Source of the DNA: Oligoflexales bacterium
GTDB taxonomy: Bacteria > Bdellovibrionota_B > Oligoflexia > Oligoflexales > JALZUQ01
Length of the DNA: 64,000 nucleotides
Assembly: GCA_023301465.1 (NCBI GenBank)
Contig: JALZUQ010000046.1
Span: 1-64,000 of the forward strand
Reading direction: 5' to 3'
The notes under the pieces were generated by a model. It worked only from the letters and a program-made list of their open reading frames with translations. It searched no databases and was not told the origin of the DNA. How positions within the stretch are numbered: position 1 is the stretch's first letter; each line of letters starts with the position of its first letter. This document shows, piece by piece, positions 2,756-14,094 of the stretch. The position numbers and the translations under genes are program-made.

Positions 2756-3016
2756 GTTTATGTGGGGAATCTCCTGTAAACATACAATAATATTATGTTT
2801 GTTTTCGGTATAAATCTGGTTTTCTCAACTCTATATTAAAAGGTCTGTAAATTCAGTTGGTTGAGTTGAAGGTGTAGTTAATTATTGAGGGTGTTTGAAT
2901 ACTTCAATGAAAGAGAGTCTATTTAATAAAAGAATACAAGGTGTTAACGGTGGAGCTCATTATTTCTGAGTAAATATTCGAACTATATAGCATGAAGAGG
3001 GAAAAGGTTTTCTGTG
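2756..3016. promoter_or_regulatory. divergent promoter region of the two Ig-repeat lipoproteins
   Basis: About 260 bp of AT-rich DNA separate the two divergent lipoprotein genes, so promoters for both must lie here. An inverted repeat (AAACATA, 9-nt spacer, TATGTTT) lies close to the left-hand gene's start, and could be an operator. No -35/-10 pair stands out. Confidence 0.35.
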
Positions 3017-5641
3017 ATGTCTTTCAAATTGGTTCAATTGATAATATTAAGGGTCGGTATAGCACTGATTGCCTTAGGTCATTTGGCTTGTGACCAAGCT
3101 TCACAAAGTCAAGTCTCTCAAGGCAGCACTTCATTTTTGGAGCCAGATATTTCATTAAGCGAAGCTTCCAATGATAATATACTTGCAGGAATTTCAAATA
3201 ATGGAGACAACACTGAGAAGTGGGAGCTTCAAAATACAACTTCAAATATAAGTAATGAAAGTGCAACCATCGGTCAGAATTTTGATGTGAAAATAAATGC
3301 ACATTACGCCCTTGGTGATCAACAACGAATTATTTTGGCAAACGATCAATTCGTGTGGAGTGTTTCAGGTGATGAGATTATTAAAGAAATCGCAAAAGGA
3401 AAGTTCTTGGCAATAGGTATTGGTGCCGTTAAAATCACAGCTTCATGGGAAAAACATGATGTGTCATATGAATACGATGTTCAAGTAGTTGACTCTGGTA
3501 TTGTTAGTGTTGCCTTGAGTCAACAAAAAGGCACATTGAAATTAGATGATGTTATTGGCCCCATTTCAATTCGAGGTTTCTATCCAGATGGAACTTCAAC
3601 CAACATCACAAACTCCAGTACACTTATACCTAATAATAGTGATGATCATTTTATTGTTTCTAAAAGTTCTAATGATGAGTTTTTTATTAAAGCGGTAAAG
3701 TCTGGTGCAGGATCTCTAAAGTTAGCTTATGAGGATCATTTAGAAAAGTTTGATATTCAGGTGACAGGGCCTGATTTTTTGAAATTCATTGAGCTAGTTG
3801 AAGTTCCAGGTGGAGTAGTTGTTGGTACTGACTCAAACTTAGACTTGCAGGCGTTGTACTCTGATAATACTACTCGTAATATATCGGACCGTGTTAGTTG
3901 GGAAGTGTCCCCAAACTGGGCTGCAAAAGTTGAGTATAATGTTGACACTCAAAAAATGCTTCTTAAACCTCTCGTTTCAGGCTTGGTAACTTTAAGGGCT
4001 TCATATGAAGGGAAGTTTCTGGAGCAAGAAGTTTTTATAGACACAGGTGCACCTGTAGAATCTTTGGAGATTAATACATCAATCATCTTACCTTTAGGGG
4101 CAGAGCTTTCTTTGCCACTTATAGGAAAAACTTCTTTGGGTTTAGTAAATATAACATATAGATCTTCTTGGGTGTCTGTTCCTGAAGGCCAATCTTTTTT
4201 TACATTTGATTACGATAGAGATACCAATAGTAGAATATTAAAACCTATTGCAATTGGATCTTCGACGTTACAAGTAAGTTACCCAGGGCATGAACCGATT
4301 GAAATTCAGGTACAAGTAACAGAAGCAGCAGTTGAGAGCATTCATGTTTTTCCAAAGAATACTAATTTGGTTCATCCCTTAGAAATAACCTGTGGTGTTG
4401 ATGAAGCTCAGTACTTGGTGCGTGCAACTTTAACCAATGGACAACAGATACAGATAAATGATGAAGATGTCCAATGGAGTGCAAGTAATTCTAAGCTTGA
4501 AGAGAAGGATGGAGAAAAGGGAACTCTGATTGCTATAGCAGAAGGAAATGAGACAATTGAAGCAACTTATTTAGATCCTATTACATCCATAGAGCACAAA
4601 GCTAATGCTGAAGTTGAAGTGCTAGCTCCTCATAGAGTTGGTATTCAAATACAAGCTGATGTTAACTCACTTGAAATGGGTAAAGACTTTGACTTTTCTG
4701 TCTTTAAAACATTTACTTGTGGCGACCCTGTTCCTGTAACCAATACTGCAAATTTTTATGTCTGGGAAGTTGTGCAGGGTTTGAATCAACCAAATATTGT
4801 TAGTTTTAATAATAATCAAAGAGGTGTCTTGTCAACCTCTGGTTCATTAGCCTCAACTTCTTTAGTAGAGGTCAAGTTAACAAGTAATGCTCCAGGAGAA
4901 CTGGAATATACTGCAAGCTCAAATGTAAATGTTCTTCCAGAGACGCTAGCAAGCTTTGAGTTTGACTATGGAGCAACTGTTGAGTTTACATTTGGTAAGA
5001 GTTATCAAATGTCAGTCATTGATTCCTTTCAGCCGCACTTACGCGGAGAATTGACGAATGGAATTGAAGTAGATCATGCATATATTACTCAAAACCATAT
5101 CATAAAATATGAGGTAATCAGTGAACAAGACCCTATTTTAGTTGATGACTTAGGGGTTGTTTTTGGTAATGAAATTGCTAGTGGGTTGTTGTCTGTTGAG
5201 ATTGAAAATGTAAGCAAAGAGCATACAAGTATTACTGTAACAGCTCCTTGTCCAAAAGACTCATTTGGTAACTGTATAGGTAGATTGTATGATCAAAAAC
5301 ATTGGTGGTTTCTTGGTAATGTAGGGGAGTCATGCCAGCAAGTTTGTGATCAAATCGTTGATGATATCGGGGTTGCTGTTGTTGATACAAAAGGAACTTA
5401 TGGAGTTGGGCACCTTGATTCCATAGGCGGTACGCAGTGTCTTGCTACTATGGATTTTATATCTGGCAAAACTCCTTTGACAGAAGCTGGCGGTCTTGAT
5501 TTTACTGGATCAAGTGGTTGGGGAGTTGGTTGTGGTTTGTTTCCTTCAAGTGGAAGTACCTACAGAATTTCAAGTCCTAATACGAATGCTTCAGACTCAT
5601 TGCCTGCATTTAGAAGGTTGTGCTCTTGTAAGGGGATTTAA
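3017..5641 (+). CDS. Ig-repeat lipoprotein with 8-Cys C-terminal domain, paralogue of the divergent gene
   Basis: Predicted lipoprotein of 874 residues. The leader reaches a cysteine in the context GHLAC, an imperfect lipobox. A GTG lies directly before the chosen ATG, so the start could be 3014. The middle consists of Ig/BID_2-like beta repeats ('SLKLAYEDHLEKFDIQV', 'VTLRASYEGKFLEQEV', 'STLQVSYPGHEPIEIQV'). The last 130 residues carry eight cysteines in the same order as the divergent neighbour (C, C, CxxxC, QCLA, GC, CSC), while the repeats are much less alike. This suggests an old duplication or a shared modular tail. Likely exported and surface-exposed; partner unknown. Confidence 0.85.
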   Translation: MSFKLVQLIILRVGIALIALGHLACDQASQSQVSQGSTSFLEPDISLSEASNDNILAGISNNGDNTEKWELQNTTSNISNESATIGQNFDVKINAHYALGDQQRIILANDQFVWSVSGDEIIKEIAKGKFLAIGIGAVKITASWEKHDVSYEYDVQVVDSGIVSVALSQQKGTLKLDDVIGPISIRGFYPDGTSTNITNSSTLIPNNSDDHFIVSKSSNDEFFIKAVKSGAGSLKLAYEDHLEKFDIQVTGPDFLKFIELVEVPGGVVVGTDSNLDLQALYSDNTTRNISDRVSWEVSPNWAAKVEYNVDTQKMLLKPLVSGLVTLRASYEGKFLEQEVFIDTGAPVESLEINTSIILPLGAELSLPLIGKTSLGLVNITYRSSWVSVPEGQSFFTFDYDRDTNSRILKPIAIGSSTLQVSYPGHEPIEIQVQVTEAAVESIHVFPKNTNLVHPLEITCGVDEAQYLVRATLTNGQQIQINDEDVQWSASNSKLEEKDGEKGTLIAIAEGNETIEATYLDPITSIEHKANAEVEVLAPHRVGIQIQADVNSLEMGKDFDFSVFKTFTCGDPVPVTNTANFYVWEVVQGLNQPNIVSFNNNQRGVLSTSGSLASTSLVEVKLTSNAPGELEYTASSNVNVLPETLASFEFDYGATVEFTFGKSYQMSVIDSFQPHLRGELTNGIEVDHAYITQNHIIKYEVISEQDPILVDDLGVVFGNEIASGLLSVEIENVSKEHTSITVTAPCPKDSFGNCIGRLYDQKHWWFLGNVGESCQQVCDQIVDDIGVAVVDTKGTYGVGHLDSIGGTQCLATMDFISGKTPLTEAGGLDFTGSSGWGVGCGLFPSSGSTYRISSPNTNASDSLPAFRRLCSCKGI

Positions 5642-5654
5642 GTCAAAGTCGATA

Positions 5655-6791
5655 CTACTGAAAAATATGGTGACGTGATGAATTTCCTCTAAAATCAGAT
5701 GTTTTTTTAATACAGATTCTTTGGTCGGCAAGTTGTTTTATAAGTTTGTCTTTGAAGTACATTGAAATTTCATAAGTAGTGCAACCTAAAGAGAGTTTTA
5801 CTTTTTTTGAGGGTTTTAATGAAGTTAGTTTTATGATTTTTGAATCGATATGAAAGTCTGCTTCGAATCCTTTGTCTATCTGACCACTAAAGACAACGTC
5901 AATGGATGAATGATCAGAATAGTAATTTGCATGATTAACCGGCGATTTCTTGTTCAAAAACTTATCTAATGGTATCTCTAAGCTGTCTTGGCTCTGAATG
6001 AATGTAAATTCAGTCCATTTCTTTCCTGATATCTTGAGGACATTGCTTTGGTAGTTCATGTCTGAGCTCATTACTTGAATAAAATGCCCTTTAAAAGCTG
6101 AGAAATTGTGTGATGCGTTATTATCTTGAGTGGTAATAACGGGTACGCCTCTTGGTTGATTCGATTGCCAAATAAAAACATAGTACTCTTTTATAGAGGA
6201 TGTCTTTTGCCAGGAAAGATTAACTTGAAGTTCATCTCCTGAAGATAAAAAAGACATGTTTTTATATGGGTATATCCATTTTATTTTTTTGTGTTTTTTT
6301 TGCAAATAGACACTGTTTGGTTCTTTTGATTTGTTGAATTCATTAAACTTTTTTTGTTCGTCTAACCAAAAATTATTAACTGACATCATCATATCTTGAT
6401 TCCATGCATCAGACCAAAAAGAATATTCTTGAGGTGTGTTGTCATCATTAAACTGCTTTAAAAATTTTTGAGTGTTTTCTAAAAAGGTGGTTTTACCAGA
6501 AGTTTCTTTGATTAGCTGAGGTGATAGTCTTATAATGGTTTGGCCATTAAATTCCAGAGTTTTGCTTTTAGATTTTTTGGATGAGAGTTTTATTTTTAAA
6601 ATTGAATCTTGATTCATTTGAATAAGATCGCCATAGTTTAGGTTTTTTCTTTGGCAAACGTCTAAGCTTTTTAGGCTAAAGGCACCAATAATATGAATGT
6701 TTCCCTTGCACGATATGACTTCAATGTTCCCAAATAAGTTTGAATGCGACAGTATGCCGGTAACAATTAAAATAAAAAATTTAAACAACAT
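5655..6791 (-). CDS. exported FecR-like domain protein of the motor operon
   Basis: Predicted exported protein of 378 residues, the last gene of the minus-strand operon containing the Mot and FliF/FliG-like genes. ATG at 6791 begins a signal peptide (MLFKFFILIVTGILSHS); a TTG start at 6812 would add seven residues. After the leader, residues about 20-95 resemble a FecR periplasmic domain ('GNIHIIGAFSLKSLDVC', 'LNYGDLIQMNQDSILKIKL', 'NGQTIIRLSP'). A fibronectin-III-like stretch follows at about 190-260 ('VNLSWQKTSSIKEYYVFIW'). The start overlaps the upstream gene's end by 11 bp, implying coupled translation. A periplasmic structural or regulatory role in the motor is inference from context. 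Confidence 0.75.
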   Translation of the reverse strand: MLFKFFILIVTGILSHSNLFGNIEVISCKGNIHIIGAFSLKSLDVCQRKNLNYGDLIQMNQDSILKIKLSSKKSKSKTLEFNGQTIIRLSPQLIKETSGKTTFLENTQKFLKQFNDDNTPQEYSFWSDAWNQDMMMSVNNFWLDEQKKFNEFNKSKEPNSVYLQKKHKKIKWIYPYKNMSFLSSGDELQVNLSWQKTSSIKEYYVFIWQSNQPRGVPVITTQDNNASHNFSAFKGHFIQVMSSDMNYQSNVLKISGKKWTEFTFIQSQDSLEIPLDKFLNKKSPVNHANYYSDHSSIDVVFSGQIDKGFEADFHIDSKIIKLTSLKPSKKVKLSLGCTTYEISMYFKDKLIKQLADQRICIKKTSDFRGNSSRHHIFQ

Positions 6792-7431
6792 GCTTGGTTC
6801 TCGTGGCGGCAAGGTAGTTGAAGTACGTGATGATTGTGCTGAAAGATATAAGCAGTAAAATCCACCATCTGTAAATATAGGTTATTTTTTTTATAAAAAA
6901 GTCTGCTGGGACTTCGCTGAATGAAATCAAATTTGTTCTTGGGATCGTTGTATATGCATGAAAACCTTTCTTTGATACGAAGCTATAAGACTGCAAGGGG
7001 TTGCGTATAAAACTTTGGACAGACTTAAATGATGAAACACTATTTGTTTGTACGTTCTTTTGATTGGAAAAAATCACATCGCCAGCTTTAGTCATGATGA
7101 AACTATTAGTGGTGTTTTTGAATAAAGGTGAGCTAGTAGAGATCATAGATTGTATTTTTAATTTTCTTTTTAAGGTTTTATGTCCTTGTATCTCAATTGT
7201 GTTGTTCTTATTAATGATGTATTTTGTTTGTTTGTCTTTAGAGAAAATGTCGTCTAAGTTGTTGGTAATATGTGCGTTAGTGCTATGGAAGTTTTGAAAG
7301 AAAAACATGACTTCTTTTGGCTGTAAATCTTTTGTCCAAGCGGTATACACGATGAGAAAAAAACAACCAGTAAACACTAAGGGTTGAATAATAAATAACA
7401 ATTTAAGTAAGTTTGATTTTAATCTTTTCAT
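6781..7431 (-). CDS. two-TM membrane protein with Cache-like extracytoplasmic domain
   Basis: Membrane protein of 216 residues. There is one transmembrane helix near the N-terminus (about 10-30) and one near the C-terminus (about 187-207), with about 155 extracytoplasmic residues between them. That loop has the feel of a Cache-type sensor ('IMTKAGDVIFSNQ', 'FHAYTTIPRTNLISFSEVP', 'FFIKKI' running into the second helix). It has no HAMP, kinase, GGDEF or methyl-accepting domain after the second helix; only about eight residues follow. It sits 5 bp after motB, so it may sense a signal or modulate the stator. Domain call is by eye. Confidence 0.7.
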   Translation of the reverse strand: MKRLKSNLLKLLFIIQPLVFTGCFFLIVYTAWTKDLQPKEVMFFFQNFHSTNAHITNNLDDIFSKDKQTKYIINKNNTIEIQGHKTLKRKLKIQSMISTSSPLFKNTTNSFIMTKAGDVIFSNQKNVQTNSVSSFKSVQSFIRNPLQSYSFVSKKGFHAYTTIPRTNLISFSEVPADFFIKKITYIYRWWILLLISFSTIITYFNYLAATRTKHVV

Positions 7432-7436
7432 TTTTG

Positions 7437-8207
7437 TTAGTTACTTTCGTTTTTTTTAACTTCAATGGTGACACGTCTATTTAACGCTTGGTTTTCTAGT
7501 ATAGGTTTACCATCTGCTGAAAAGTTAGGGGCGATAGGGTCGTAACTTGCTCGGCCAATTGCTTGAATACGCTCAGGTTTTATGCCGTTTTTCATGAAAA
7601 ACCTCGAAACACTTAATGACCTTGCTGTTGATAACTCCCAATTGTCTTTGTAAAGACCGTTTTTAATGGGTGTTGGATCAGTATGCCCTGTGATGTGTAA
7701 AGAGTAAGAGTTTGGAATGTTTTTAATTTTTTCTGTGATTGCTTTTAGAATGATCTTGCTTTTTTGAGTAAGTTTGTTGGAGCCAGTCTGAAAAAGTTTT
7801 ACAGAGGGGATTACTATCTTCAGTAAATCTTCATTTTTTTGATCGACCCATTGGTGTAGGCTTTTTTGTAATTTTTTGATGGTTTTCTTATCTGTTTTAT
7901 CTCTAAATATTTTTTTTGCTATTGTATTTGGGTTGTCCTCTAAGTTTAAGGCTGCAAGTAATAGTTTTACTGCACGTACTTCTTTATTGTTATTAGGTAC
8001 ACCAATGTTTTTTTTGCTTTTACTGTCTTCGCGACCAGAAAATTCTTTGCTCATAGCTTCTTTGAAGGATTCAACATCAGATTGGTTTTTTTGTGAAATT
8101 GCAAAAAAGATAATAAAAAAGATAAGTAATAGTGACATCATATCTGCGTATGAGTATATCCAGTTTTCGTCTGATTGTTGTTTTCTTACTTTTTTATTAA
8201 TTGCCAT
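7437..8207 (-). CDS. motB: MotB-family stator protein with OmpA-like domain
   Basis: Ion-channel stator subunit of 256 residues. A short basic N-terminus leads into the single transmembrane helix, which carries the proton-binding aspartate of the family (SYADMMSLLLIFF, D22). A linker follows, then a C-terminal OmpA/MotB peptidoglycan-binding domain at about 125-250 ('LHITGHTDPTPI', 'NWELSTARSLSVSRFF', 'ALNRRVTIEV'). It lies 16 bp downstream of motA. The family converts ion flow into torque on FliG. Here no flagellar gene lies nearby, but a FliG-like protein is encoded just upstream in the same operon, so that is the likely partner. Confidence 0.93.
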   Translation of the reverse strand: MAINKKVRKQQSDENWIYSYADMMSLLLIFFIIFFAISQKNQSDVESFKEAMSKEFSGREDSKSKKNIGVPNNNKEVRAVKLLLAALNLEDNPNTIAKKIFRDKTDKKTIKKLQKSLHQWVDQKNEDLLKIVIPSVKLFQTGSNKLTQKSKIILKAITEKIKNIPNSYSLHITGHTDPTPIKNGLYKDNWELSTARSLSVSRFFMKNGIKPERIQAIGRASYDPIAPNFSADGKPILENQALNRRVTIEVKKNESN

Positions 8208-8223
8208 GATTTAACACCTGTTT

Positions 8224-9006
8224 TTAACGTTGATAGCTTCTCTCACCTGGCAATACAAATGAATTGAGTTTTTCTCTAATAAAAAGTGTTGGTAGTCTCT
8301 GTCCTACAAGTATTGCACCTTCAATAGCAATTCGCCTTTTGATGTCATCTTCAATGGTTTTTTGTGTGATGTTTTCAGCAAATGGGATAAGTACCATGTT
8401 AGATAAAGCTACACCATATAGGGTGGTGAGTAGGGCGATTGACATTGCAGGTCCAATCATAGATTGGCCTTCAGAATCACCTAAGTTTTGAAGGACGGCA
8501 ATGAGGCCAAGTGTCGTACCCATCAAACCAAATGCTGGTGGAAACTTTGAAATGATACTAAATACCTCAGCTTCACTCATGTAGCGTTCTGATTGAGTAT
8601 TATAGCGTTGCTCCAGTAGTTCTCTGAGTTGATCCAAAGTTATTTCAGAGTCAATCCAAAGCACAGCTTGAAATGCATCTTTTACAAAAAGATCATCTAT
8701 AGACTCTAGTTTTTGTTCAAATGCTACTGGGTTATCTAAGAAAATTTCATTGTATTGGCAGATTTCTTCAATTAACTCAGAGTAAATAGTAATATCTTTT
8801 CCAAATAATCTTCTGAACACGACTTTAAAAAGTACAATGAGCCTTTTGATGGGAAAACAAATAAATGTAACAGCAAGTGTGCCACCGAGGACCAAAAGCC
8901 CTGCTTTAAAGTCAAAGAATACATAGATGTTATCTAAAGACTGAGTAACAGAGATAATAAATATGATAACAGCAGCTAAAAAGCCCATAAATGTTGCAGC
9001 GTTCAT
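8224..9006 (-). CDS. motA: MotA-family stator protein
   Basis: Inner-membrane stator subunit of 260 residues, the usual length for MotA. It has four transmembrane segments (about 5-23, 34-53, 157-175, 186-208) and a large cytoplasmic loop at about 55-150 between helices 2 and 3. Family motifs are present: 'GGTLAVTFICFP' in helix 2, 'FPPAFGLMGTTLGLI' at the start of helix 3, and 'TTLYGVALSNMVLIPFAE' in helix 4. P157 and P208 are candidates for the two conserved channel prolines. The cytoplasmic loop is what contacts FliG in flagella. The gene follows the FliF/FliG-like gene by 12 bp. Confidence 0.93.
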   Translation of the reverse strand: MNAATFMGFLAAVIIFIISVTQSLDNIYVFFDFKAGLLVLGGTLAVTFICFPIKRLIVLFKVVFRRLFGKDITIYSELIEEICQYNEIFLDNPVAFEQKLESIDDLFVKDAFQAVLWIDSEITLDQLRELLEQRYNTQSERYMSEAEVFSIISKFPPAFGLMGTTLGLIAVLQNLGDSEGQSMIGPAMSIALLTTLYGVALSNMVLIPFAENITQKTIEDDIKRRIAIEGAILVGQRLPTLFIREKLNSFVLPGERSYQR

Positions 9007-9018
9007 GGTTGTTTCCTA

Positions 9019-11100
9019 TTATATGACGTCATCAAAATTATTTTCTTCATTTACTGGTTGAGTTTGTTCTAGGTCCTCAGTCATTTTTAGTCTGGTTGTT
9101 TCATTCACAAGTGTTTCTTGATCTTTCTTGTGTCTGTTTAAATCATGCTGGATGTTTGGTTCTATTAAAAATAATTCATCGCTGTTTTTTAGGTTTTTCA
9201 TGATGTTTGTGATTTCTTCACGAATAACTTTGCTTTGAATGGAAAGGCTTTTGCCTTTTTTCTGCGAAGCTTTTTTGTACTCATGTTCGATCATTGCTTT
9301 ACGGTTACTAGTCATGAATGAGCTGATTTTTTCAAATAGCTCGGGTGCTTCTTGAATCCATAATGCAACTTGGATGTTTGAAAGTTCACTGTATATTCTC
9401 TCAATGCTTTCATTTTCAAGCCTTAGGCAGTCACTAAATATAACCACATGTCTTTGAAGTTTATGGCCTAGTTTTGGGTTTTCAGTTGCAATGTAATCCA
9501 TCATTTTTTCAACAGATGGCTGTTTTAGTTCATCTATTATTTTGAGGTAATGTCTTAGTTGCGTTTCGTTTGCTTCGTTTTCTTTATTTGAAATAAAATT
9601 TTCATAGGATGCGAGTATATTAGTATCTAAATCTGAGTGAAGTAACGACATATCTTGTTGGGTATCTTTGTTTGAAAAGTTAAAATCTTCTGAGTTCATT
9701 AGCTCTTCCAAGAGTAATGCTGCTCTTTGAGGTGCTAGGTAACTTAAAATGCGTTCTGTATAATGAGCTGGGGATTTCTTGCAAAATTCTTCCAGGTTTT
9801 TTTGATTAGATTTTAGTAGATTTTTTCTTAATAAAGGATCCTTTTGATTATTGTAGGCATCTAAAGTTGCTATAGTGATATAAGATATGACTTCCTCTAG
9901 AGCTTCAACGGCTAAAATATTTTTGTGAGGGTTGTTAGAATCAAGAATAGTGGTTATTTTAAATTGAATATCCTCTGAAAACTGGTGATAGTATTCAGAG
10001 GTTTTTTCAATTTGAAAGCTTTCAAGTATAAGAACAGCTTTGAATTGTTGTTTTTTCTCGTTTGAGTAAAGTCCTCCGACGATATACTCAAGAAGATGAA
10101 CATCATTTTCTTTTGTAAGAGTTTCTATTTTTTGAACCAGATTATTTTTGTGTTTTAAAAGAGAGTCTAGGTTTGCATGTGTTTTTAATTGTCTGCTTTC
10201 TTTGGATTCTTTTTTTGTTGGGTTAATATTACTGCCTGACTTCAAAACCTTTTTTGGAGAGTCGTTTTGTTTTTGTTCAAATATACTTTGCATCATCTTC
10301 GTGAAATTTCTGACTAAGTCGCTTATTTTTGAAAGAACAAACCAACAAACAACCAATGCAATTATCAATGATAAAAGCCATGCTGTGATTTTTAATATTT
10401 CAATAAAGTTTACTTTTAAAAAAGATCCCCAAGAATCAAATTTCCCTGATTTAATGGTTTGTAATTCTTGCTCAGTTTTGGTTAGCTGTTGTTGTAGTTT
10501 TGTGTTTTCTTCCTTTGACTTTTTTTGAATCTCGTTCTTTGCGTCTATATTGTTCTCTAGTCTAGAAATTTGACTGTTTTTCGTAATAAGCTGTTGTTCT
10601 AGTTGTAGAATTTTATTTTGTTCTTTTTGGTTATTGTTTTTTTTGACTTTTTCTTTAATTCGTATCTGAGCAATTTCCTCTTTGAGATTTATTTTGTTTT
10701 TTGGGATGTAGTCGAGTTCTTGAAAGAGGAGCTTTTTGATGTTTTGTCTTTGTTTGCTGCCAATTGATTTATCAAAGGTTACTAAAACACTGATCATCTT
10801 AATGTATCGTTGGATAGATGAACGCGTTATCTTATTTGTATTCTCTCTGTTGGTTTGACCAGGAAAGTAAGGCACACTTTTTTCTGATTGAAGGGATTTA
10901 GAAGAAACTTTAATACTAAAGTAGTAGTAACCTGCCGGCAAAGCACTTTCTAGGCTCTTTTTAATGTCGCTTGAGAGAATATCCTTAATCTTTAATCTGG
11001 TTTCTATTTGTTTTGATTTTTGTGCTTGTAGTTGAAAAGGAAGTATTAAACTGCCAAAACAAAGATATACCATAAGATTAAATTTAATTAGATTTTTCAT
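9019..11100 (-). CDS. FliF-like/FliG-like fusion protein, candidate rotor of a non-flagellar motor
   Basis: First gene of the operon, 693 residues. Order: signal peptide (1-26, ending LQA); periplasmic region resembling the FliF ring-building domain before its last helix (about 35-140, 'LPAGYYYFSIKV', 'SIQRYIKMISVLVTFD', then a helix and 'IPKNKINL'); coiled coil (about 158-217); one transmembrane helix (about 233-257); cytoplasmic region resembling all three FliG parts. FliG_N-like is about 330-386. FliG_M-like starts near 440 (SPAHYTERILSYLAPQRAA, aligning with EHPQ-type sequence). FliG_C-like is about 530-645 ('IFSDCLRLENESIERIYSEL', 'SSFMTSNRKAMIEHE', 'IMKNLKNSDELFL'). Both likenesses are by eye. 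Co-operonic MotA/MotB support a rotor role. Confidence 0.8.
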   Translation of the reverse strand: MKNLIKFNLMVYLCFGSLILPFQLQAQKSKQIETRLKIKDILSSDIKKSLESALPAGYYYFSIKVSSKSLQSEKSVPYFPGQTNRENTNKITRSSIQRYIKMISVLVTFDKSIGSKQRQNIKKLLFQELDYIPKNKINLKEEIAQIRIKEKVKKNNNQKEQNKILQLEQQLITKNSQISRLENNIDAKNEIQKKSKEENTKLQQQLTKTEQELQTIKSGKFDSWGSFLKVNFIEILKITAWLLSLIIALVVCWFVLSKISDLVRNFTKMMQSIFEQKQNDSPKKVLKSGSNINPTKKESKESRQLKTHANLDSLLKHKNNLVQKIETLTKENDVHLLEYIVGGLYSNEKKQQFKAVLILESFQIEKTSEYYHQFSEDIQFKITTILDSNNPHKNILAVEALEEVISYITIATLDAYNNQKDPLLRKNLLKSNQKNLEEFCKKSPAHYTERILSYLAPQRAALLLEELMNSEDFNFSNKDTQQDMSLLHSDLDTNILASYENFISNKENEANETQLRHYLKIIDELKQPSVEKMMDYIATENPKLGHKLQRHVVIFSDCLRLENESIERIYSELSNIQVALWIQEAPELFEKISSFMTSNRKAMIEHEYKKASQKKGKSLSIQSKVIREEITNIMKNLKNSDELFLIEPNIQHDLNRHKKDQETLVNETTRLKMTEDLEQTQPVNEENNFDDVI

Positions 11101-11278: not shown

Positions 11279-11324
11279 ATAATATAATCATTTAGTTACT
11301 TGTTTGGTGAAGGGTTTACGTTTT

Positions 11325-11969
11325 ATGAAGAAAACATCTCTGTTTTTAGTGAATTTAATTTTATTTCAAGTGCTTTTGTTAAGTGGCTGCAAAAAACGAA
11401 CAGTAGCAGTAAAAACTAATGTTAATTCAACTATTAATATTGTTGATTTTAAACGCCCTAACAGCAAAGGCAAGGTATACGGAAAAACACCAAAAAAAAT
11501 ATCCATGTCTAAACTTAAAGGGAAGTTCATTCGTTTAAGTAGTAAAGGGTATGAGCCACAAAATTGGGTGTTTACTGACCTTATTTCTAGAAAGATTGAT
11601 CTTTCTACAAAACTAGAGAAAGTTGTTGTAGATGAGAACTTAAAAAATAAAGACAAAAAAGAAGAGCCGAATAATATACAAGAAGAAAAACAGAGGAAAG
11701 CACAAGAGGTAAAATCTAATAACCGCTTGGCAAGAATGATCATGAGAAGCTATGTGTCTTTTACGAATAAAAAGTACAGAGATTCATTTGAGCTAGCAAA
11801 TCAATTGGCGTCACTTTTCCCTAATCTTGCAGCTCCATTAATTATTAAAGGTTTGATTTTTTTAGAACAAAACAAGAAAAAAGCAGCACGTATTTCATTT
11901 CTAAAAGCAAAAAACCTAGACCCAGAAGATAAAGATATCGACAAACTCATCGGATATGCAAAGCCATGA
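11325..11969 (+). CDS. PEGA-domain/TPR lipoprotein
   Basis: Lipoprotein of 214 residues. ATG at 11325 is preceded by AAGGG at a good distance; a TTG at 11304 would only add seven residues. The leader ends in a clear lipobox (LLSGC, Cys22). Residues about 25-95 look like a PEGA domain ('GKVYGKTPKKISMSKLKGK', 'RLSSKGYEP'). A charged linker (about 100-130) and one or two TPR-like helical hairpins to the C-terminus follow ('YRDSFELANQLASLFPNLAAP', 'ARISFLKAKNLDPEDKDI'). It is divergent from the Mot/FliG-like operon and overlaps the next gene by 4 bp. An outer-membrane scaffold role for the motor is inference. Confidence 0.8.
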   Translation: MKKTSLFLVNLILFQVLLLSGCKKRTVAVKTNVNSTINIVDFKRPNSKGKVYGKTPKKISMSKLKGKFIRLSSKGYEPQNWVFTDLISRKIDLSTKLEKVVVDENLKNKDKKEEPNNIQEEKQRKAQEVKSNNRLARMIMRSYVSFTNKKYRDSFELANQLASLFPNLAAPLIIKGLIFLEQNKKKAARISFLKAKNLDPEDKDIDKLIGYAKP

Positions 11970-12586
11970 AAAACTATATTTTCTTAAGTGTATTGTTTAT
12001 ATCTACGTTTTTTGCGTACTCCAGAGGAGAGGCGAAAATGTTAGATTACAGACTTCTCGTTGGTGGAACTTATGGTTCGCTGGATGTGCAGCCTAGTCAG
12101 GACTTTCCGTTTCAACGTCAATTTGAATATCAATCGATTGCCTTTGTTCCTGGCCTTGTTTTTCAACCACATTTTGACTTTTTTTATTTATTAGATATAC
12201 CAATTCAATTTGATTATACTAATAATCAGGTCATTAATATTGGTGGTAGTATCGGTGTTGGTTATCACCTTTTAGGTGGAATTAAAGAATATCAGACTGG
12301 TTCTGAAGACTTGTCTTTAACTTTTACGAATGAGTACAGTCTTTCCGGGGTTGTTAAGATGAGTTACTTATTTTTTGATGCTGGTACAAGTGAAACCTTG
12401 AGTCAGCTATCAAGTGTTAAAAGCTCTGTTTTGACTTTAGATGTTGGTCTCCTATATAGGCATGATATTGTCGACCAATGGAGCACGGGTGTTGAATTAA
12501 ACGCATCGGTTTTGTCTTTTGCAGTTGATAACGAAACTAAAGTTAGTGTATTTCAATTTATATTTGGTGGATTTGTCAGATTTTAA
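11966..12586 (+). CDS. small outer-membrane beta-barrel protein
   Basis: Exported protein of 206 residues. A signal peptide of about 22 residues is followed by alternating hydrophobic/polar beta strands throughout ('YRLLVGGTYGSLDV', 'INIGGSIGVGYHLLGGI', 'LTLDVGLLYRHDI'). It ends in a terminal phenylalanine within an aromatic strand (FIFGGFVRF), the usual Bam recognition end. It is coupled to the lipoprotein gene by an ATGA overlap and to the next gene by overlap. No specific family recognised. Confidence 0.75.
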   Translation: MKNYIFLSVLFISTFFAYSRGEAKMLDYRLLVGGTYGSLDVQPSQDFPFQRQFEYQSIAFVPGLVFQPHFDFFYLLDIPIQFDYTNNQVINIGGSIGVGYHLLGGIKEYQTGSEDLSLTFTNEYSLSGVVKMSYLFFDAGTSETLSQLSSVKSSVLTLDVGLLYRHDIVDQWSTGVELNASVLSFAVDNETKVSVFQFIFGGFVRF

Positions 12587-14094
12587 AGTATTTTTTTATA
12601 TTTTTGTTGCTTTTTTCTTTAGAAGCTTTTGGAGCAAAAGTTAGTTACCTTTCTAAAGATCATGCTTTCATGGTTTTAGATCAAGGTCTTCAAAATGGTC
12701 TTCAAGATGATCAAGTTGTTTGTTTGTATCGTAACAAAAAGCTTCTTGTTTGTGGTGTCGTAGGTTTTATTTCAGATAATGAATCTACAATATTATTAGA
12801 AAGTCTTTCATCCCAAAAAAAATCACTTATAAAGTTAAAGATGAAGGTTGAGTTAGGGGAAATACCACCAAAATATCGTTATAAGACTAATATTGATGTG
12901 TCGGGTAAGACTTCTGTTGAAATTCAGAAAAAAAAATCAGCGGCTAGAATTGTTTCTATTGATCAAGACCAACGCTTAGTTACTTTTCGCTTTAATGGAT
13001 CCACATTTAAAAAAGATGATCGTGTGTGTGTATATAGGCAGTCATCATATAAAAATCTTGCCTGCTATATTGTTTCTAAAGTTAGTAGAAAGTTTGGTTT
13101 TATTCGAAGTCGAGGCAGTAGGTTCAAAACACTACAGGTAGGTGATCTCGTAAAGCAAAAAGATAAAAAAACCAACGATGACTCATTGAATAAAAAACCT
13201 GAATTGATTGAAGGCAAGAAGCTAGTGCCGCTTACTAAACCTATTAAAGACGAAAACATTAAATTGGGATTAGGGTTAGACCCAAATCAACAAGGGCTTC
13301 TTATTGATAAATCAAGAAAAAAACGACGTACTAAAAAATCTCAAAAAAACAAAAACACAAAATGGAATAGCCCAAAAAGGTATGCAGTAGGTGGCGGGTT
13401 TGTTTATCCATTTATTGCAAGGTTGCAAGCAAGCCATGCTGGTTTTATTCGTATCCTTTCTGAGGAATCTCCCAGATCAAGGCAGTGGGAAGCTCTAGAG
13501 GACTTGCAGCCATCTTTTGGTTTTCAATTAGCTTTTGAGGTTTTTGACCTATTTGTGAAGCGAACTGTTTTGGATATAGGTGGCTGGTATTCTTTGGTCA
13601 CTCCTTTGGATAGTAATGGTCCATTGGATGATCTAGATTTAACAAGAATGTATTTTTCTCAAAGTGAATATAAAGAAATGGGTTTTTGGGTCGACTTTAA
13701 ATATAAAGTTCTAGACTTGAGGAAATCTAAGTTTCATGTGGATGCTGGTTTAGGTTTGGATTACTCATTACATTTTATTGATTATAACGCATATTGGGTT
13801 CAAGGTGATAACCCGGAGCGTACTTTACTAGCTAATGTAGAAAATTTAAAAGGAGTTCTAGGTCTTCGTTTGCCTATAGGTTTCTATTTTAACTTTAGAG
13901 ACTTCACTTTTGGGTTGACAACAGTTTTAGGGGTTCCGGTTGCAATTATTGATCATGGATCAAAAGATTTTTCTGTACCGCCGTTTTCATTTTCTTATGA
14001 TGGAGATGCATTGTTAGACCTAAAAGAAGCGTCTTCTATTGATAAAAGTTCGTTTTCGTTTGATCTGGGTTTCAGTGTGAAATATAAAATATAA
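12580..14094 (+). CDS. exported two-repeat plus beta-barrel protein, probable ATT start
   Basis: Predicted 504 residues from ATT at 12580, overlapping the preceding stop by 7 bp. The TTG at 12604 would leave only a stub of the signal peptide. From ATT the leader is complete (LKYFFIFLLLFSLEAFGA, then KVS), and GGTGG lies 9 nt upstream. The mature part opens with two related modules: 'DDQVVCLYRNKKLLVCGVVGFI' and 'DDRVCVYRQSSYKNLACYIV', each with two cysteines. A lysine-rich linker (about 200-265) and a C-terminal barrel of about 235 residues with many aromatic beta strands follow. Likely an outer-membrane protein with a periplasmic foot. Family unknown. Confidence 0.75.
   Translation: MLKYFFIFLLLFSLEAFGAKVSYLSKDHAFMVLDQGLQNGLQDDQVVCLYRNKKLLVCGVVGFISDNESTILLESLSSQKKSLIKLKMKVELGEIPPKYRYKTNIDVSGKTSVEIQKKKSAARIVSIDQDQRLVTFRFNGSTFKKDDRVCVYRQSSYKNLACYIVSKVSRKFGFIRSRGSRFKTLQVGDLVKQKDKKTNDDSLNKKPELIEGKKLVPLTKPIKDENIKLGLGLDPNQQGLLIDKSRKKRRTKKSQKNKNTKWNSPKRYAVGGGFVYPFIARLQASHAGFIRILSEESPRSRQWEALEDLQPSFGFQLAFEVFDLFVKRTVLDIGGWYSLVTPLDSNGPLDDLDLTRMYFSQSEYKEMGFWVDFKYKVLDLRKSKFHVDAGLGLDYSLHFIDYNAYWVQGDNPERTLLANVENLKGVLGLRLPIGFYFNFRDFTFGLTTVLGVPVAIIDHGSKDFSVPPFSFSYDGDALLDLKEASSIDKSSFSFDLGFSVKYKI

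Follow-up and report, generated by a model that had tools for sequence, protein, structure and literature searches.

A FliF-FliG fusion protein encoded with MotA and MotB in a flagellum-less Oligoflexales genome: a probable non-flagellar rotary motor

RESULTS

Rotor and stator genes at the locus

We analyzed a 64,000-nucleotide stretch of a draft genome from an Oligoflexales bacterium (assembly GCA_023301465.1, contig JALZUQ010000046.1, positions 1 to 64,000; hereafter the window), in which a preliminary description had recognized an operon for a FliF-FliG-like fusion with MotA and MotB. The operon is a minus-strand run from 11100 to 5655 comprising five genes with short gaps or overlaps, which encode a protein of 693 amino acids (aa), MotA, MotB, and proteins of 216 and 385 aa (Table 1); the coordinates of these open reading frames (ORFs) agree exactly with the earlier ones. 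By sequence comparison and structure prediction, the 693-aa protein is a FliF-FliG fusion, with a signal peptide, an RBM3-type domain, a coiled coil, a membrane helix, and the N, M, and C domains of FliG.

The C-terminal part of the fusion matches FliG by several routes. Pfam FliG_C covers residues 537 to 643 (E = 3.6e-8; 34.1 bits versus a cutoff of 23.3), and three FliG crystal-structure sequences match residues 448 to 645 (E = 2e-10 to 5e-10). A profile of 19 relatives of the fusion, aligned to ten FliG and FliG-like proteins of about 330 to 360 aa from the same class, matched canonical FliG over 295 columns with the N, M, and C domains in order (E = 1.7e-19; probability, 99%); a reversed FliG profile, used as a control, was null (E = 0.14). 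The AlphaFold model of the 693-aa protein (mean predicted local distance difference test score, 74) is all-helical in its C-terminal part, FliG structures fill the first 14 places among its PDB matches (E from 2e-6), and its FliG_C domain superposes on that of Thermotoga maritima with a root mean square deviation of 2.4 Å and a template modeling score of 0.72 to 0.75. The FlgY/MotE/FlbB E-ring proteins and MgtE_N share a single-domain FliG-like helical-repeat fold (PMC13023049), whereas here all three FliG domains are present, across the membrane from a FliF ring domain; the N-M-C alignment and the T. maritima superposition rule out that the resemblance extends only to a fold of this type.

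The N-terminal part resembles FliF over a shorter span. Against 18 flagellar FliF proteins, the fusion profile matches only the RBM3/collar part (window protein residues 29 to 144; E = 3.2e-5; 126 collinear columns), covering FliF columns 238 to 427 alone; the reversed FliF profile gave E = 0.24, and reversed-profile controls overall gave E = 0.04 to 0.4, ruling out chance similarity. In the model, residues 30 to 143 or so form an alpha-beta-beta-alpha-beta fold followed by one long helix (residues 159 to 217) and the membrane helix, and the structure matches that come after the FliGs are the ring-building domains of FliF, EscJ, and PrgK, interspersed with generic folds that have this topology. 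An RBM3 domain followed by a membrane helix is the arrangement of FliF ring proteins; alignment and sequence indicate that RBM1, RBM2, and the first membrane helix of FliF are not in the fusion, a cleavable signal peptide replacing that helix. The membrane helix of the fusion has a Kyte-Doolittle maximum of 2.67 near residues 238 to 256 with positive charge after it, and by hydropathy and charge the FliG part is cytoplasmic. When 58 genomes were scanned with Pfam FliF_C, four of the five matches below the cutoff were N-terminal parts of fusions; such matches occurred in G053, G055, and G056, and among the fusions only that of relative L205 exceeded the curated cutoff. For an independent model of a Bdellovibrionales homologue, the first 24 PDB matches (350,542 chains) were all FliG or FliF, at E = 0.01 to 0.3. 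The domain order read earlier from the letters alone, from signal peptide through FliF-like periplasmic region, coiled coil, and single membrane helix to FliG N, M, and C, is thus upheld by sequence, profiles, hydropathy, and model.

The next two genes encode a stator, as first described. MotA matches MotA_ExbB, and its best NCBIfam models are MotP, PomA, and MotA, far above TolQ/ExbB; MotB has plug and OmpA domains and carries the proton-binding residue, channel Asp22, in the motif SYADMM. Elsewhere, 38 of the 75 MotA homologues in loci L033 to L112 end in Ala-Ala, versus 29 of 560 other long ORFs, and many fusions end likewise, though neither the window MotA nor its fusion does; such ends could be a C-terminal degradation signal of the ClpXP type.

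MotA/MotB-derived stators also occur outside flagella in Zorya (ZorAB), which lacks any FliG or FliF component and couples to cytoplasmic nuclease or helicase effectors. Zorya phage defense was ruled out for the fusion locus: its 260-aa MotA has no PADLOC match, the operon contains no effector gene, and its MotB matches ZorB only as a MotB relative. The same genome encodes a second MotA-MotB pair (L198, G000:C8:160000-172053; 3761 to 10606, minus strand) with a 365-aa protein and a 1,444-aa AAA_11/UvrD-type helicase. There, MotB matches ZorB models (3.8e-14), the helicase matches the defense helicases PDC-S37 and MkoC, and the 260-aa MotA has no PADLOC match; by sequence, L198 looks like a Zorya-like defense candidate with a short MotA.

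Flagellar genes in the host genome

The window genome (G000) is a 2.77-Mb draft estimated to be 96% complete. No FlhA (FHIPEP), stand-alone FliF (FliF_C), or FliM/FliN (FliMN_C) was found in it. The FlhA search was positive in 47 of the 58 genomes of the class, and therefore the method works; FliF was found in 48 of the 58, and FliM/FliN in flagellated comparison genomes. The fusion is the only FliG_C match over the cutoff in G000. From the absence of FlhA, FliF, and FliM/N, rod, hook, and filament genes also appear to be missing, families that were not searched singly. Lacking FlhA, FliF, FliM/FliN, and any other FliG over the cutoff, this genome leaves the fusion neither as an ordinary flagellar FliG, which is ruled out, nor as a flagellar accessory there. 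The look for fliM, fliN, and flhA in the rest of the genome that the preliminary description had proposed found none, and neither of the two outcomes that it had named as fatal to its reading, an ordinary flagellar copy and the lack of a structural match to FliF or FliG, occurred. Another genome, G003, encodes a stand-alone 330-aa FliG-like protein (L139/L195, G003:C1:739660-740343), and neither FlhA nor FliF_C was found in it.

Distribution of the module

The conserved module consists of the fusion, MotA, MotB, a TPR/PEGA lipoprotein, and a small barrel-like exported protein, often with a sensor and a FecR-like protein. Homologous fusions of about 550 to 810 aa accompany MotA and MotB across the class and in Bdellovibrionales, Bacteriovoracaceae, Silvanigrellales, Oligoflexus, and Pseudobacteriovorax, thus also in predators of the Bdellovibrio group, and the lipoprotein and the barrel-like protein are their recurrent neighbors. 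A fusion lies nearby in at least 46 of 80 named MotA loci across Bdellovibrionota, a lower bound, the loci spanning about 6 kb; masked bases in some of them leave a few homologues incomplete. The window family aligns with the Bdellovibrionales fusions (E = 2.6e-19, 497 columns), with a third fusion group (E = 6.5e-23, 526 columns), and with the Bacteriovoracaceae group (E = 1.3e-7). Further along the operon, the closest relatives encode a sensor-HAMP-SpoIIE phosphatase of about 600 aa and a FecR/fn3-like protein of about 400 aa; the sensor, FecR-like, lipoprotein, and barrel-like genes of the window all have counterparts in the module of these relatives (Table 1).

The fusion also occurs in genomes outside the phylum, which were classed as "same domain" only. 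G124 (98% complete) encodes a 553-aa fusion with matches to YscJ_FliF_C (1e-6), FliG_M (6e-11), and FliG_C (1e-32), all over curated cutoffs, followed by MotA and then MotB, and has no FlhA and no FliM/N. G129 and G271 encode a fusion with C-terminal TPR, a coiled-coil protein, MotA, and MotB, and G100 has the order lipoprotein-fusion-exported protein with MotA elsewhere in the genome; none of these three has FlhA or FliM/N. In G246 and G175, fusion and flagellum are both present. Within the class, G021 carries a divergent fusion-MotA-MotB set and no FlhA, FliF, or FliM/N; its kinship with the window module is less sure, because its MotA forms a long branch. Five genomes without flagella thus keep the gene set, one within the class (G021) and four outside the phylum (G100, G124, G129, and G271), which answers the question that the earlier description had asked.

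These distributions bear on two alternatives. Flagellated relatives might use the fusion as an accessory to, or a substitute component of, their flagellar motor, with the window genome keeping it as a relic; in our judgment this is very improbable. Many fusion-bearing genomes do have flagella and canonical FliG as well, and the literature treats Bdellovibrio motAB pairs as stators of the flagellum, a 2024 study doing so for all HD100 MotAB pairs (PMC11323537). However, the cluster is intact in flagellum-less G000, the fusion recurs in the five further genomes without FlhA or FliM/N just named, and its genes lie outside flagellar clusters, beside outer-membrane genes instead. Even harder to credit is a decaying, functionless remnant of a lost flagellum: the flagellum is indeed missing in G000, but the ORFs are intact, the operon is tight, the partner genes are conserved, and the fused architecture is common to distant lineages, which decay would not yield repeatedly.

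A second fusion subfamily of 770 to 850 aa (L190:6429-8810, L191:7555-9900, L199:7203-9707, L040:3176-5488) combines what looks like a doubled periplasmic domain with a membrane helix and FliG; many flagellated genomes of the class contain about one copy. The fusion gene adjoins a small probable cNMP-binding (cyclic nucleotide monophosphate-binding) gene; in L191 and L199 it lies near apparent pilM-pilQ genes without MotAB there, and in L040 MotA and MotB come after the fusion.

Accessory and neighboring genes

The 216- and 385-aa proteins, labeled Cache-like and FecR-like in the preliminary description, have no Pfam match, but homology to proteins of the relatives' operons does place both genes. 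The 216-aa protein is homologous to the extracytoplasmic sensor part of the HAMP-SpoIIE phosphatases at the equivalent position (examples in close relatives, L033:5615-7549, L034:7607-9454, and L037:7636-9429). Only this two-helix sensor part, without HAMP and SpoIIE, is kept in the window, which suggests that the gene has lost its signaling output. The 385-aa protein belongs to a conserved exported family of about 390 to 430 aa, for which relative L034 gives an fn3 match (E = 0.0025).

The lipoprotein and barrel-like genes are divergent from the operon and lie beyond the range given originally (5655 to 11100). The 206-aa barrel-like protein has no Pfam match. Module membership of the 496-aa gene that follows is not established; it has a weak match to a 229-aa protein of L041 (E = 0.02 to 0.04). 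On the other side of the operon, an 875-aa large exported protein with weak matches to bacterial Ig-like domains is encoded at 3014 to 5641 on the plus strand, and probable lipoproteins of about 1,000 aa with similar C termini stand beside Bdellovibrionales modules (L112:2114-5131, L103:2010-5009, L087:106-3111); such large exported proteins could be surface partners of the motor.

Table 1. Features of the predicted motor locus and adjoining genes in the window
Feature	Position	Strand	Basis
FliF-FliG fusion rotor protein, 693 aa (predicted)	9019..11100	-	Pfam, FliG crystal sequences, profile alignment, AlphaFold model
Signal peptide, residues 1-26	11023..11100	-	Read from sequence; hydrophobic stretch
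FliF RBM3-like ring-building domain, residues 29-144	10669..11016	-	hhalign E 3.2e-5; model fold; FliF/EscJ/PrgK structure matches
Periplasmic coiled coil, residues 159-217	10450..10626	-	Single long helix in model; charged/leucine-rich sequence
Membrane helix, about residues 232-258	10327..10407	-	Hydropathy and charge asymmetry
FliG N-M-C region, residues 350-645	9166..10053	-	FliG_C part at 9172-9492
MotA stator subunit, 260 aa	8224..9006	-	Pfam MotA_ExbB 1.5e-22; MotP/PomA/MotA models; MotA tree
MotB stator subunit, 256 aa, channel Asp22 and OmpA peptidoglycan-binding domain	7437..8207	-	MotB_plug 7e-13, OmpA 3e-17
216-aa protein, two membrane helices, reduced sensor	6781..7431	-	hhalign E 8.7e-9, 85 columns
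385-aa exported FecR/fn3-like protein, conserved last operon gene	5655..6812	-	hhalign E 2.3e-18, 291 columns
TPR/PEGA-like lipoprotein, LLSGC lipobox, conserved module gene	11304..11969	+	hhalign E 4.8e-23 to fusion-adjacent lipoprotein of relatives; weak TPR/PEGA
206-aa exported protein, probable small outer-membrane barrel, conserved module gene	11966..12586	+	hhalign E 3e-13
496-aa exported protein, possible further module member	12604..14094	+	Position only

DISCUSSION

The gene content of this locus argues that it probably encodes a dedicated non-flagellar rotary motor with its own rotor and its own MotA and MotB. In flagella, the S-ring is made of FliF RBM3 domains and FliF carries the FliG ring, whose C domains are pushed by a MotA pentamer as it rotates around a MotB dimer. 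By analogy, copies of the fusion would assemble through RBM3 into an inner-membrane ring, like an MS-ring with the FliG ring built in; MotB would anchor the MotA pentamer to peptidoglycan, and ion flow would turn MotA, which would push the FliG C domains so that the whole membrane ring turns. Because there is no rod, hook, or export gate, the output would have to be short-range periplasmic motion, with the TPR/PEGA lipoprotein and the small outer-membrane barrel as its most plausible recipients. The preliminary description had motion pass to the periplasm through the coiled coil; this part of its reading is not supported as stated, because Bdellovibrionales homologues have no long coiled coil between ring domain and membrane helix and the coil cannot be the general output. 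Its reading is otherwise supported: the FliF and FliG matches proved real, and the genome is flagellum-less. In relatives, the sensor-HAMP-SpoIIE phosphatase and the FecR-like protein probably regulate the motor. The motor would most likely serve to move components of the surface or envelope, for example during gliding or on contact with prey or surfaces.

Several observations weigh against a rotary motor of this kind. Taken alone, the window protein shows modest RBM3 homology, and G001, a genome of the same family, has no fusion and no close MotA. The charges of the stator-rotor contact are partly kept. An acid equivalent to D289 is present in 17 of the 19 fusions (E in the window), but the R281 position holds R or K in only about 11 of 19 and is N in the window (with R adjoining), and in MotA the R90 equivalent is lost and E98 is kept; this residue pattern neither proves nor excludes direct torque contact. 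Linkage to the fusion is clustered on the MotA tree (15 changes versus 27.5 with shuffled labels) but still needs many gains or losses, and therefore stators and rotors may have been re-paired over time.

The incomplete contact charges would also suit an energized machine that does not rotate, in which MotAB pulls on or strains the FliG part and the fusion passes a conformational change to the outer membrane. TolQR and ExbBD, relatives of MotAB, act in this Tol-Pal/Ton manner, and the partner lipoprotein and barrel-like protein are located at the outer membrane. We nevertheless think such a machine unlikely: the ring-building FliF domain and the full FliG N-M-C order are both specific to ring rotors, and MotA belongs with the flagellar MotP/PomA/MotA proteins rather than with TolQ/ExbB.

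The locus shares with the flagellar motor the FliF RBM3 domain, FliG N-M-C, a flagellar-type MotA, and a MotB with channel Asp and OmpA domain, but FliF and FliG are here one polypeptide, which lacks RBM1, RBM2, and most of the FliF collar, and in place of export gate, rod, hook, filament, and FliM/FliN there are outer-membrane lipoprotein and barrel-like partners. The Myxococcus Agl-Glt machinery (AglRQS) is likewise a flagellum-free proton-channel motor with outer-membrane partners, yet AglRQS group with TolQR-type transporters and no FliG-type rotor is described for them in the available part of a 2025 survey of MotAB evolution (PMC12505986), in contrast to the MotA/PomA-like stator and FliF-FliG rotor here. 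That survey, in the same part, covers flagellar and generic ion transporters and AglRS for gliding, with FliG only as flagellar partner (PMC12505986). The Bacteroidota type IX secretion and gliding motor (GldLM) is a 5:2 ion-driven motor for gliding rather than swimming, but according to a review its stator is not a homologue of MotAB, and the review describes no FliG-type rotor for it (PMC13104615). Engineered Vibrio FliF-FliG fusions form rings, the MS-ring assembling with FliG attached (PMC11481574); those are artificial and built on flagellar FliF, whereas the fusion here is natural and lacks RBM1, RBM2, and the first membrane helix. Searches of the open-license literature (bioRxiv preprints not covered) turned up no paper that describes a FliF-FliG fusion occurring in nature or a non-flagellar FliG rotor. 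As predicted here, then, the parts are all homologous to flagellar parts, and the assembled device is without known counterpart.

The usual view, to our knowledge, is that the flagellar rotor serves solely to turn a flagellum. A naturally fused rotor that comes with a dedicated stator in cells lacking flagella would mean that the torque-generating core can be an independent device, which bears on the evolutionary assembly of the flagellum. A 2026 review calls the gliding machinery of Bdellovibrio unidentified and a major open challenge (PMC13104615), and the module is a concrete candidate for a Bdellovibrionota gliding motor. More tentatively, and with the balance of our expectation tilted against it, the module may represent a widespread, undescribed class of rotary motor without flagellum in several phyla, serving Bdellovibrionota for gliding or prey contact and including some Bdellovibrio-group MotAB pairs now counted as flagellar stators. 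The MotAB genes of Bdellovibrionota should not be presumed to encode flagellar stators.

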